DNA of 34,952 nt, from contig JAPPIP010000114.1 in NCBI GenBank assembly GCA_028820595.1, forward strand, positions 1-34,952, given 5' to 3'. Positions 31,009-34,952 of this stretch are shown piece by piece. The notes below the pieces were generated by a model. It was not told where the DNA came from and searched no databases. It saw only the letters and a list, made by a program, of their open reading frames with translations. The DNA is from Nitrososphaerota archaeon. GTDB lineage: Archaea > Thermoproteota > Nitrososphaeria > Nitrososphaerales > Nitrosopumilaceae. A program made the position numbers and the translations under genes. Positions within the stretch are counted from its first letter, which is position 1; the number at the start of each line of letters is the position of its first letter.

Positions 31009-31181
31009 ACTGGATTCTGCCGCCTGCTGGGGAGAGGGGGCAGTCCGCAGGATCCGATGCGCATCTGACGCCTCGTCCCTGCAGGATTTCTCACACGCGC
31101 CGATGCCGGGATACGCGCGGGATGGACCCGCAGTGCGCCACATCCGATCATCTTTTAATGCCCCTGCCTCCTTGCATACTC

Positions 31182-31637
31182 ATGAAGGCCACGTTTGGCG
31201 CGGGATGCTTTTGGCACGTCGAGCACATCTTTGCAAACACAAAGGGCGTTACATCCACCGCGGCGGGGTATACGGGCGGCCGCGTGGAGGATCCGACCTA
31301 CGAGGAGGTATGCACGGATCGGACGGGCCATGCGGAGGCAGTCCAGGTCGAGTACGACCCCGACCAGGTGTCCTACGACGACCTGCTTGACATATTCTGG
31401 TCAAACCATGATCCCACGACCCTCAACCGGCAGGGCCCCGACATCGGCATCCAGTATAGGTCGGCCGTCTTTTGCCACGACGACGGGCAGAGGCTTGCCG
31501 CCGAAAAGTCGCGCGACGCGCTTGCACGGTCGGGCAGGTACCGCGGCCCGATTGTGACCGAGATTGTGCCCGCTGCGCCGTTTTACCGTGCCGAGGAGTA
31601 CCACCAGAGGTACTTTGCAAAGCGCGGCATCGCATAG
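31182..31637 (+). CDS. msrA: Peptide methionine sulfoxide reductase A
   Basis: A 151-aa MsrA that reduces methionine-S-sulfoxide in proteins. The N-terminal motif ATFGAGCFW carries the catalytic Cys (residue 8). The segments [28 protein letters not shown] and [20 protein letters not shown](I)QYRS are diagnostic. The C-terminus [18 protein letters not shown] is short: no trailing resolving-Cys cluster is present, so recycling may use another Cys (for example the one in YEEVC) or an external thiol. ATG 31182 is preferred over the longer frame because catcttttaatg (31149-31160) is a TATA-like element about 25 nt upstream. Confidence 0.95.
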
Positions 31638-31947: not shown

Positions 31948-32673
31948 ATGAGCCGCAGCATTGGGACGTCGATTCCCGAGATGTTTCGCTCCGTCGATCT
32001 AGGCGGAACCATAATTGACTGCAATTTGGCGTATGCGGAAAGGCTGGGGTACACTCTTGAGGAGGTAATCGGCAGGTCGTTTCTTGATCACACGCCCGAG
32101 AAATACCGCGACGCTTTGGTGGCCAACTTTGAGGAATGGAAGAAGACTAGGGCGCACTCTGCCGGGCACATAGTCCTCGCGACCAAGTCCGGCGAGGAGT
32201 TCGAGGTTATGCTGGCGGCGATGAGCCTGTATGACGACAACAGGAACCTCATAGGCCGCAACTCCGTCATAAGGGAGATCGCGCACCTCGAAAAGATGAG
32301 CAAGATGTATGACGTCTCTTCCAGGGAGGGATACGAGCACCCGGAGATCCTGCACAGGTCGGTAAACTACAACGGCATCATCATAGACTGCAACCAGACG
32401 TACGTTGACAGTCTGGGATACACAAAGGAGGAGGTGATAGGCGTCAGCCTGCTGGAGCACACGGCCCCGCGCTCGCGCGGTAACATAAGCGCCCACATGG
32501 AGAACTGGAGGAACGGGATACACGACACTGCAAAGATCTGGATGCTGCGAAAGGACAAGAGCGAGTTTCTCGTGTCCCTTACCGCCACGGACGAGCGTGA
32601 CGAGGACGGCGCTCTGGTCGGCAGGACCGTCGCGCTCAGGCCCATGTCCGGGCCCGCCTGCCCGGTACAGTAA
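31948..32673 (+). CDS. Double-PAS protein without an output domain
   Basis: A 241-aa protein with two PAS domains: about residues 10-110 (VDLGGTIIDCNLAYAERLGY, GRSFLDHTP) and about 132-235 (VNYNGIIIDCNQTYVDSLGY, GVSLLEHTAP). They are joined by a linker containing EKMSKMYDVSSREGYEHPE. Both copies end with a strand of the type NLIGRNSVIREI or ALVGRTVALRPM. There is no kinase, receiver or HTH module, so it would be a sensory adaptor. It is closely related to the single-PAS protein at 17.1-17.7 kb. The ligand cannot be inferred. Monocistronic with its own promoter. Confidence 0.88.
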   Translation: MSRSIGTSIPEMFRSVDLGGTIIDCNLAYAERLGYTLEEVIGRSFLDHTPEKYRDALVANFEEWKKTRAHSAGHIVLATKSGEEFEVMLAAMSLYDDNRNLIGRNSVIREIAHLEKMSKMYDVSSREGYEHPEILHRSVNYNGIIIDCNQTYVDSLGYTKEEVIGVSLLEHTAPRSRGNISAHMENWRNGIHDTAKIWMLRKDKSEFLVSLTATDERDEDGALVGRTVALRPMSGPACPVQ

Positions 32674-32986
32674 CCGTGCGCCGCCGGGTAAGGGGCCTTC
32701 CAGCAGATGGTACTCACCATAAGCGGGCTGAAATGCAAATGGACAGGCTGGGAGACGCAAAGGGTGGCCGCATGAAGGCCGTTACGGATGAAGGAAGAGC
32801 CTGCCGGTGGGGGACAGTACGGGATGTCTTGCGGGGTGGATAGTTTTGCATAAAAAATTCATGCAGGATGGATCCTGCTTCTTGATTCGCCCCATGACGC
32901 CTGCCGGGATCTAATGTGTTCGGATTTTGTTCCATACACTGCCCGAACGACTAGACTTATCAATGCATGGTACGTGCGTCCTGTGG
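32674..32986. other. Intergenic region before the hydrolase
   Basis: About 310 nt without a gene. ttttgcataaaaaattcatgc (32842-32862; AT-rich core at 32846-32857) is a promoter-like island without a suitable downstream start. gacttatcaatg (32953-32964) is the probable TATA region of the hydrolase gene. Confidence 0.4.
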
Positions 32987-33790
32987 ATGAAGGAGCGCTT
33001 TGTCGATGTGGGGGGCCACCACATCCGCTACCTTGAGGGTGGTGATCCGACTGACGGCACGATGGTCCTGCTGCACGGGCTTGGAGGCTCCGCGGAGCGG
33101 TGGGACAAGGTCTCTCCCATATTTGAAAAGAGGTTCAGGGTGGTGGTGCCCGACATGATCGGGTTCGGGCTCAGCGACAAGCCGCCGTCTGACTACACGC
33201 CGGGCTTTCTGACCTCGTTTCTTGGGGATTTTGTGCGCGCCACCTGCGGACAGCGCATATTTCTGGTGGGCTCGTCGCTTGGCGGCCAGGTCGCTGTCAT
33301 GTATGCGGCCTCGCATCCGGCCAGCATAGACAGGCTCGTCCTAGTCTCGCCTGCGGGCACGATGAAGAGGACTACGCCGGCGTTTGACCTGTATATGATG
33401 GCCGCAATGTACCCCGGCGAGCAGTCCGTGTCCAGGGCCTTTGAGGCGATGGAGGCCTCCGACCAGAGGGCGGACGCGGATCTGGTACGGGGCTTTATCA
33501 GGAGGATGAGGCTCCCAAACGCAAAGATGGCGTTCATGTCGGCCGTGCTGGGGCTCAGTAACTCCGGGCTCACGGAGGCGATGCTGCACTCGATAAGCTC
33601 CCCCACGCTGCTGGTCTGGGGCGAGGACGATCCTGTCGTTCCAGTCCAGAACGCCGGATTCTTCCTGTCCTCTGTAAGGGACTGCACCATGTTTAGAATG
33701 AAGGGCTGCGGGCACACCCCCTATGCGCAGAGCCCCAAGGCCTTTGCAAAGCTGGTGCTCGAGTTTCTGGAAAGATCCACGGCCGGGTGA
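32987..33790 (+). CDS. Alpha/beta-hydrolase fold protein
   Basis: A 267-aa hydrolase. Oxyanion motif LLHGLGGSAERWD is around residues 27-39. The nucleophile elbow is VGSSLGGQ (GxSxG, Ser about 94). The acid is in LLVWGEDDPVVP and the catalytic His in GCGHTPYAQSP. The lid region (FDLYMMAAMYPGEQSVSRAF) is Met-rich. Substrate unknown: an esterase, C-C hydrolase or haloperoxidase-like enzyme are all possible. It is immediately upstream of the AbrB/phasin-like pair, so a role in ester or polyester turnover is a tempting but unproven guess. ATG 32987 is chosen over 32963 and 32927 because acttatc (32955-32961) would be its TATA box. Confidence 0.9.
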   Translation: MKERFVDVGGHHIRYLEGGDPTDGTMVLLHGLGGSAERWDKVSPIFEKRFRVVVPDMIGFGLSDKPPSDYTPGFLTSFLGDFVRATCGQRIFLVGSSLGGQVAVMYAASHPASIDRLVLVSPAGTMKRTTPAFDLYMMAAMYPGEQSVSRAFEAMEASDQRADADLVRGFIRRMRLPNAKMAFMSAVLGLSNSGLTEAMLHSISSPTLLVWGEDDPVVPVQNAGFFLSSVRDCTMFRMKGCGHTPYAQSPKAFAKLVLEFLERSTAG

Positions 33791-33935
33791 CTCTGCGAAC
33801 GGCCATGCCTCACCGACGCGTCTCCGGTCCCCCATGAGGCGGCTGCCTGCAGGACGCGGCCAGACTAGTGTCCGGCCGACCGCGCGCGGACGCGTTTCCG
33901 GGTGTTCTACCCCTACAATTCTGCCAGACCGGTTG

Positions 33936-33947
33936 CTATTTATACCT
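33936..33947 (+). promoter_or_regulatory. TATA box of the AbrB/phasin-like operon
   Basis: gctatttatacc is 21-32 nt before ATG 33968. It fixes this start rather than the longer frame from 33902. Confidence 0.65.
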
Positions 33948-33967
33948 CTTATTTCACACCATTACCA

Positions 33968-34405
33968 ATGAATGGTAATAGCAACCAGTATGATCCTACA
34001 AGGATGTTTCAGGACTGGATACAGAGAGGCGGGGCGGCACAGGCCGAGTTTGTCAAGAACTTCGGCTCGCTGATGACCGCCGCAGGCCAGACTCCCGGGA
34101 CGTTCAACCCGCTTGAGACGCTGCGTCAGATGTCCGAGACGGCGCAGAGCGCGCAGTCTAGGATGATAGAGAACGTTTCTAGCATGCAGAGCAGGGGCAT
34201 GGATGCCGTGATCGGCATGGGGCAGGACATGATCTCCTCCATTGCCGGCTGGGGCGCCTACAAGACCACTGTCAGCAGCAACGGGCGGATCTCCATACCG
34301 GAGGCCGAGCGCAAAGCGCTCGGAATCGGGGAGGGAGACCTGGTGCAGGTGATCATACTGCCTATTCCTAACAGACAGAAAAGGGAGGTGAACAAGCAAA
34401 TATGA
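33968..34405 (+). CDS. Phasin-like helical protein with C-terminal AbrB/SpoVT domain
   Basis: A 145-aa protein. Residues 1-95 are Gln/Met/Ala-rich helices (MFQDWIQRGGAAQAEFVKNFG, TLRQMSETAQSAQSRMIENV, RGMDAVIGMGQDMISS) with the amphipathic, Cys-free character of granule-associated phasins. Residues 100-135 are a swapped-hairpin AbrB-type domain: TTVSSNGRISIPEAERKALGIGEGDLVQVIIL. AbrB domains bind DNA or oligomerise. The ATGA overlap with the next gene shows a tight operon. In haloarchaea, polyhydroxyalkanoate clusters pair an AbrB-like regulator with a phasin; here both features appear in one chain. A PHA role is inference, since no PhaC is in the window. Confidence 0.72.
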   Translation: MNGNSNQYDPTRMFQDWIQRGGAAQAEFVKNFGSLMTAAGQTPGTFNPLETLRQMSETAQSAQSRMIENVSSMQSRGMDAVIGMGQDMISSIAGWGAYKTTVSSNGRISIPEAERKALGIGEGDLVQVIILPIPNRQKREVNKQI

Positions 34406-34854
34406 CTGACAAAAACAACAGCAACAACAGTGGCAACAACACGTCAAGGCCGTCCTCAAACGACTCGTTTGGCGTATTCAGGCAGAACCTTGACAAGATG
34501 TTCAACGGCATACGGCAGTCGGTACCGCAGTACCACCAGGCCATAACAAACGTGCAGCAGGAGTACCTGCAGGCATGCGAGAACGTTGCAAACTCTGCAT
34601 TTGAATTCCAGAGGGAGGTGGCGCGCAAGTCGGGACTGTCCACGGGCATCCCGGAGGCTGCAGTACGCACAATAGGCGGAACGACTGAGGAGATTGCAAA
34701 GATTGCATCCATAAACAACCAGGTCATACTGACCACGATCGATGCGACTCAGCAGAACATCAAGACGTTCAACGACAACGCAAAGTCCTTTTCGAGCATC
34801 AACCACGACATACTAAAGTCCTGGATATCGGCATTCCGTTTCAGGGCCAACTAG
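34402..34854 (+). CDS. Phasin-like / PHA-synthase-subunit-like protein
   Basis: A 150-aa protein. A Asn/Ser-rich N-terminus (residues 2-20) is followed by long amphipathic helices: FGVFRQNLDKMFNGIRQSV, QYHQAITNVQQEYLQACENV, ANSAFEFQREVARKSG, and IASINNQVILTTIDATQQNI. No membrane segment, signal peptide or catalytic motif is present. The helical, Gln-rich make-up resembles phasins and PhaE-like subunits that coat or assist PHA granules. Start ATG overlaps the upstream stop by four bases, so the two proteins are made together. A hairpin terminator follows within 10-30 nt, closing the operon. Alternative: a coiled-coil structural protein of another role. Confidence 0.65.
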   Translation: MTDKNNSNNSGNNTSRPSSNDSFGVFRQNLDKMFNGIRQSVPQYHQAITNVQQEYLQACENVANSAFEFQREVARKSGLSTGIPEAAVRTIGGTTEEIAKIASINNQVILTTIDATQQNIKTFNDNAKSFSSINHDILKSWISAFRFRAN

Positions 34855-34860
34855 TCGCGG

Positions 34861-34886
34861 CAAAAAGCCCGCAAGGGCGTTTTTCT
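34861..34886 (+). terminator. Hairpin plus T-rich terminator
   Basis: aaaaagcccgcaagggcgtttttc: stem AAAAA-GCCC/GGGC-(G)-TTTTT with a GCAA tetraloop, then cttttatttttgattt. It lies just after the phasin-like stop codon. Confidence 0.75.
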
Positions 34887-34952
34887 TTTATTTTTGATTT
34901 GTAAGTGTTAACCTGATTTGCGCTGTCTAGACGTACCTTGCAATCTCTTGGA
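34887..34952. other. Right edge, no gene seen
   Basis: The last 66 nt are a T-rich tail followed by mixed sequence. No start codon with a promoter, and no continuing frame I can support. Confidence 0.4.

Follow-up and report, generated by a model that had tools for sequence, protein, structure and literature searches.

A predicted PhaR-type repressor and its phasin-like operon partner at a locus of ammonia-oxidising archaea

What do two small, overlapping genes at the end of an archaeal contig encode, and are they connected to the storage of PHA? The window analysed here is the whole contig (C40, 34,952 nucleotides) from a 1.99-Mb Nitrosopumilaceae MAG that is 92% complete and whose closest public relatives are Nitrosopumilaceae MAGs of ammonia-oxidising archaea (AOA). 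Gene A (33968-34405, plus strand) encodes a PhaR-like protein of 145 aa with amphipathic helices (aa ~10-95) and a C-terminal AbrB domain (aa 98-133), and gene B (34402-34854, plus strand) encodes a phasin-like, all-helical protein of 150 aa. The two reading frames share an ATGA, with the start codon of B at 34402-34404 and the TGA stop of A at 34403-34405. This layout, a helical part joined to an AbrB hairpin in A followed by an all-helical B, had been read from the letters by a first-pass annotation and was borne out; both genes are conserved across the family and are therefore real. The same annotation had the operon closed by a terminator. A GCCC-GCAA-GGGC stem followed by a T-rich tract is present (34860-34899, plus strand; 4-bp GC stem at 34867-34878) and has been retained in L027 and L028, the two nearest relatives, but a terminator scan did not call it, and we list it as putative. 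The contig ends 98 bp past B. Right past the terminator the sequence diverges abruptly from both close relatives, and the last ~50 bases (34901-34952) differ, which reflects either a rearrangement or an artefact of the assembly end.

In profile searches the AbrB domain of A passed the curated cut-offs of TIGR01439 (E 9.5e-8, 31.6 bits with a cut-off of 28.3, residues 99-129) and PF04014 (E 1.7e-5, 25.1 bits with a cut-off of 24.7). Within the AbrB/SpoVT swapped-hairpin segment (YKTTVSSNGRISIPEAERKALGIGEGDLVQVIILPI, 34259-34366, plus strand) the core is 67% identical to PhaR of Haloferax larsenii over 36 aa. A tblastn search of 72,556 plasmid records with A returned three haloarchaeal AbrB genes as the only good matches (E 5e-7 to 1e-6). 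Two of these, in Haloferax larsenii and Haladaptatus caseinilyticus, lie in the gene order maoC, AbrB-hypothetical-phaE-phaC, which is that of the published maoC-phaR-phaP-phaE-phaC cluster, and the third, in Haloarcula sp. JP-L23, precedes a PhaP homologue. In a profile-profile comparison, A and these haloarchaeal PhaRs matched with a probability of 99.6% and an E-value of 1.7e-23 across 84 columns, some of them within the helical region. The C-terminal AbrB-like domain of A is thus homologous to that of haloarchaeal PhaR, and this homology makes a haloarchaeal-type PhaR the best classification for A. Residues 10-95 of A are amphipathic (mean hydrophobic moment z = 3.8 relative to shuffles), although none of the profile libraries searched called the N-terminal part a phasin. 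AlphaFold modelled A as helices (mean pLDDT 50.5) and B as a two-helix hairpin (mean pLDDT 60.0), both with low confidence and too weakly to support claims about the fold.

PHA itself is plausible in this archaeal group. A Raman PHA band and expression of PhaC and PhaE were reported for Nitrosopumilus maritimus (PMC11082331), a PHA synthase was reported in almost all Thaumarchaeota (PMC4084955), and Ca. N. ianthellae is described without one (PMC6790972). In 21 of the 22 same-genus genomes in which both were located, a class III PhaC gene faces A-B convergently at a distance of no more than about 2 kb, as in G007 (A 604589-605008, plus; B 605011-605436, plus; PhaC 605477-606508, minus); in the exception, G019, A and PhaC are on different contigs. 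A Nitrososphaera-type genome (G031) carries PhaC convergently ~20 bp past A, with no B between them. Wherever the flank was read, a separate gene directly 5' of phaC encodes the true PhaE (e.g. L031:7936-8511, PF09712 E 7.5e-12), so that relatives have the linked phaE-phaC pair, while the contig of the window ends before that stretch. We also compared the lists of A and PhaC matches in 296 Nitrososphaeria genomes. Both were found in 191, neither in 88, A alone in 4 and PhaC alone in 13, counts that do not represent independent events since the genomes are related. The four A-only cases comprise the present assembly, G253 and two weak matches. Six genomes of the window's own genus lack A as well as PhaC, and in genus g29 seven of ten lack both and three have both. 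That both genes are repeatedly missing together within genera would be difficult to account for if A and PhaC had no functional link. The PHA role, which had been offered as a guess, is now supported by synteny with PhaC and PhaE, by co-occurrence and co-loss, and by the homology of A to PhaR.

The absence of phaC from the genome had been named as an observation that would speak against this role, and taken literally it was made: a search of the assembly for PhaC with TIGR01836 found nothing. Yet the two closest relatives, whose A proteins are 96% (L027) and 94% (L028) identical, continue past A-B with a small gene, D, then BirA and then phaE-phaC on the plus strand, about 4.7 kb downstream. 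At the DNA level, a search of the assembly for this D-BirA-phaE-phaC stretch recovered only the 37 bases that directly follow B and, in other places, short scattered matches. Because BirA is missing too and two close relatives have PhaC 4.7 kb downstream, the absence of PhaC from this MAG is likely an assembly gap, with true loss as the alternative. A minus-strand QEIARYV* at the contig end was considered as a PhaC C-terminus and rejected, as PhaC of the relatives ends in ...WLAERS or similar.

A TATA-like box (TTTATACC, 33939-33946, plus strand), a putative promoter element, lies ~25 nt before the ATG of A with similar spacing in relatives, and this distance suggests a leaderless transcript. 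The start codon is covered by a perfect 7-5-7 palindrome, ATTACCA-ATGAA-TGGTAAT (33961-33979), which is conserved in relatives and which we predict to be the operator. Its 17-bp core, TTACCA-N5-TGGTAA, occurs once in the whole 1.99-Mb assembly, at this very start codon, and stands at the start of A in 7 of the 17 other genomes searched. Of 23 A loci, 16 have retained the upstream half-site (as TACCA or TGGTA) at -12..0, as compared with 0.018 per random 13-bp window, although the motif was found after viewing alignments and its significance values are post hoc. Since the downstream half of the palindrome also encodes Gly-Asn, the upstream half alone counts as independent evidence; and since 4 of 16 genomes that lack A contain the palindrome by chance, the evidence lies in its position rather than in its mere presence. 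An outer inverted repeat (33925-33992; 16-nt arms at 33925-33940 and 33977-33992 with 88% complementarity, perfect over the inner 10 bp) flanks the TATA box and the start codon and was seen only in this species group.

The same half-sites also recur as direct repeats with a period of 10 bp. TTACCA-N4-TTACCA was found 23 times in 18 genomes, about fourteen times in the promoter of A, of B or of B2, an unlinked B paralogue, mostly just upstream of the TATA box, and in most genomes that contain the repeat it marks the promoter of B or B2. The B2 genes (L072-L075, L077-L079, L084, L085) have one to three upstream TTACCA sites, with the 10-bp period where the site is repeated. Given the post hoc significance of the motif, its genome-wide match at B2 serves as independent confirmation, and the repeated half-sites upstream of unlinked B paralogues predict a PhaR regulon. 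Most of the more diverged B paralogues, e.g. those of G013, lack the motif, and none was found at phaE promoters. The region upstream of a Haloferax larsenii phaR has an ATACCAT...ATGGTAT pair of similar appearance. Two further TTACCA-N5-TGGTAA palindromes occur ~740 bp apart in G018 (L076:1268-1284 and 2005-2021), upstream of a zinc-ribbon/cyclin-like gene (TFB-like by eye) and of another small gene, which may be extra targets.

Hairpins of the AbrB-like superfamily can act as oligomerisation modules, and together with its long amphipathic helices A could be a purely structural protein, i.e. a bivalent coat or scaffold of granules whose hairpin dimerises without regulatory binding of DNA. We consider this unlikely. 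The hairpin residues are near-invariant from AOA A to haloarchaeal PhaR, whose AbrB domain is reported to be critical for repression, and a conserved palindrome at the start of A with half-sites repeated at the promoters of B and B2 is better accounted for by DNA binding, which we predict for A. Slightly less likely still is that A uses DNA binding mainly to tether granules to the nucleoid in the manner of PhaM or PhaF rather than to repress. A does join helices to a domain of DNA-binding type as these tethers join a helical granule-binding part to a DNA-binding part, but theirs consists of Lys/Ala/Pro-rich tails in place of an AbrB domain, and the single operator core in the present assembly points to a regulator more than to a nucleoid anchor. 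We found no evidence for the tethering by A that the first-pass annotation had envisaged. A better tether candidate is protein D (L028:5446-5955, L027:2996-3496; relatives L031:10983-11441, L029:11951-12409), whose gene comes directly after A-B in the closest relatives and is about 4 kb away in Nitrosopumilus. D had no match in Pfam; it combines a helical-looking N-terminal part with a Lys/Arg-rich, histone-H1-like tail (KPKSKSKPKSK...) reminiscent of PhaM/PhaF.

Context and physical character, rather than family membership, make protein B phasin-like. Its two helical regions are amphipathic relative to shuffles (mean hydrophobic moment z = 3.9 for residues 22-77 and 3.3 for 85-145), and a Foldseek search with the B model returned nothing below an E-value of 2.8. 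B shares length and amphipathic helices with bacterial phasins (Phasin_2, PF09361; TIGR01841), and some B-family members match their profiles weakly. However, no member tested passed a curated phasin cut-off (Phasin_2, TIGR01841 or PhaP_Bmeg): the best Phasin_2 match among relatives of B reached 22.7 bits with a cut-off of 24.9, B of the window itself matched only TIGR01985 (E 0.12), and PF09650 had no match in its own genome. In the functional sense B qualifies as a phasin, being small, amphipathic, helical and confined to PHA-producing genomes, insofar as B-family genes are absent from G021 and G167, the two genomes without PhaC that were checked for them. The family can be large, with nine matches in G013 alone. 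B had further been called PhaE-like, and a diverged PhaE subunit of the PHA synthase would indeed be helical and adjoin PhaC, as B does; one B member even matched PF09712 marginally (E 0.032). But B of the window had no match to PF09712 (PHA_synth_III_E), relatives possess the separate PhaE described above, and some genomes hold several unlinked B paralogues, all of which makes this identity very improbable. PhaE of the closest relatives (L028:8181-9890, L027:6838-8286) has a ~370-aa Pro/Gln/Arg-rich tail with RRRRRR clusters that is missing from the ~192-aa PhaE of Nitrosopumilus. Finally, a toxin-antitoxin pair of a MazE-like antitoxin A and a toxin B is scarcely credible, for although the genes are small and overlapping and the PF04014 (MazE) match is barely above the cut-off, profile searches found no MazF/PIN-type toxin beside A, B is amphipathic and helical with no convincing toxin family match, solo B paralogues exist unlinked, and the A-B pair tracks PhaC across the 296 genomes.

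We therefore read A-B as the thaumarchaeal counterpart of haloarchaeal phaRP, a PhaR-type repressor with a phasin-like granule-coat protein, with a probability of about 0.83. The gene structure, the AbrB domain, the homology of A to PhaR, the linkage and co-occurrence with PhaC and PhaE, and the motif with its genomic distribution were computed here; granule binding, repression and titration by A are proposed by analogy with haloarchaeal PhaR and PhaP. According to reviews (PMC9049629, PMC7137286, PMC10948481), haloarchaeal PhaR has a C-terminal AbrB-like domain that is critical for repression, its gene is cotranscribed with the phasin gene phaP and PhaR represses phaRP at its own promoter, and both PhaR and PhaP are located on granules. 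The notion of a granule protein that also binds DNA, raised in the first-pass annotation, hence agrees with what is reported for haloarchaeal PhaR (PMC9049629, PMC7137286) and was already known there.

Transferred to AOA, the amphipathic helices of A would attach to PHA granules or to phasin B, and its C-terminal AbrB hairpin, probably dimeric, would bind TTACCA/TGGTAA half-sites. When no free granule surface is available, A would occupy the palindrome over its own leaderless start and repress the A-B operon, and in relatives it may also repress the unlinked B2. Accumulating PHA would then draw A to the granule surface and lift the repression, upon which phasin B would be made and coat the new surface. 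With less confidence than in the reading as phaRP, but still as the probable case, we propose that this amounts to a previously undescribed, complete control circuit of AOA PHA granules: an AbrB-type PhaR acting on 10-bp-phased TTACCA/TGGTAA operators, one of them over the leaderless phaR start, would repress the phasin operon to which it belongs as well as phasin paralogues that are unlinked, and the B proteins, as a new phasin family, would coat the granules, in a scheme that is shared with haloarchaea and old in archaea.

A resembles PhaR of Haloferax mediterranei in its helical N-terminal part and C-terminal AbrB domain, in the position of its gene ahead of a phasin-like gene in the same operon, and in its linkage to class III phaE-phaC. 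In contrast, the helical part of AOA A is longer (about 95 vs 60 aa), its operator is a prediction, and its operon either converges with phaEC or lies apart from it, whereas the haloarchaeal operon is upstream of and co-directional with phaEC. B, like PhaP, is a helical protein of ~150 aa encoded by the second gene after phaR, but a comparison with the haloarchaeal PhaP profile detected no similarity (probability 1.9%), and the Asp/Glu-rich C-terminus that PhaP is described as having (PMC7137286) is missing from B. Haloarchaea are already known to possess this kind of system; new here are the different phasin partner, the gene arrangement and the predicted operator. The logic proposed for A also recalls bacterial PhaR, the PHB/PHA accumulation regulator of Ralstonia and Paracoccus, a granule-titrated repressor that controls phasin. 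Bacterial PhaR is not known to be of the AbrB type and is thus, as far as known, analogous rather than homologous to A.

AOA count among the most abundant cells of the sea and of soils, and there are reports, from Raman and electron microscopy, of PHA granules in them. Full-text search, with partial coverage of the literature, found no paper on a link between AbrB and PHA in Thaumarchaeota; none of the literature searched, likewise with partial coverage, names granule-coat proteins or a carbon-storage regulator of AOA; and the titles and abstracts found for phasin with Nitrosopumilus or ammonia-oxidising archaea held nothing on topic. The present assignment supplies candidates for both, together with a specific predicted operator and regulon, and extends the AbrB-type PhaR of haloarchaea to a second archaeal phylum, where its phasin partner is a different one.

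The gene upstream of A may belong to the same metabolism. As the first-pass annotation had stated, it encodes an alpha/beta hydrolase (32987-33790, plus strand; PF00561 E 2.7e-29); the reading frame opens at 32927, and relatives align from the Met at 32987. It matches PHA depolymerase models below their cut-offs (NF050089 E 1.4e-20, TIGR02240 E 6.7e-10) and is a possible intracellular PHA depolymerase or esterase. Nearly every AOA locus, those of Nitrososphaera (L025/L038) included, has conserved it as the upstream neighbour of A. Homology to the hydrolase of the Haladaptatus pha cluster in particular was rejected, as the similarity (26% over 97 aa) is that of generic alpha/beta-hydrolases. 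Further upstream, a MsrA-like ORF (31122-31637) and a PAS-repeat-like ORF (31948-32673) were recognised by eye.
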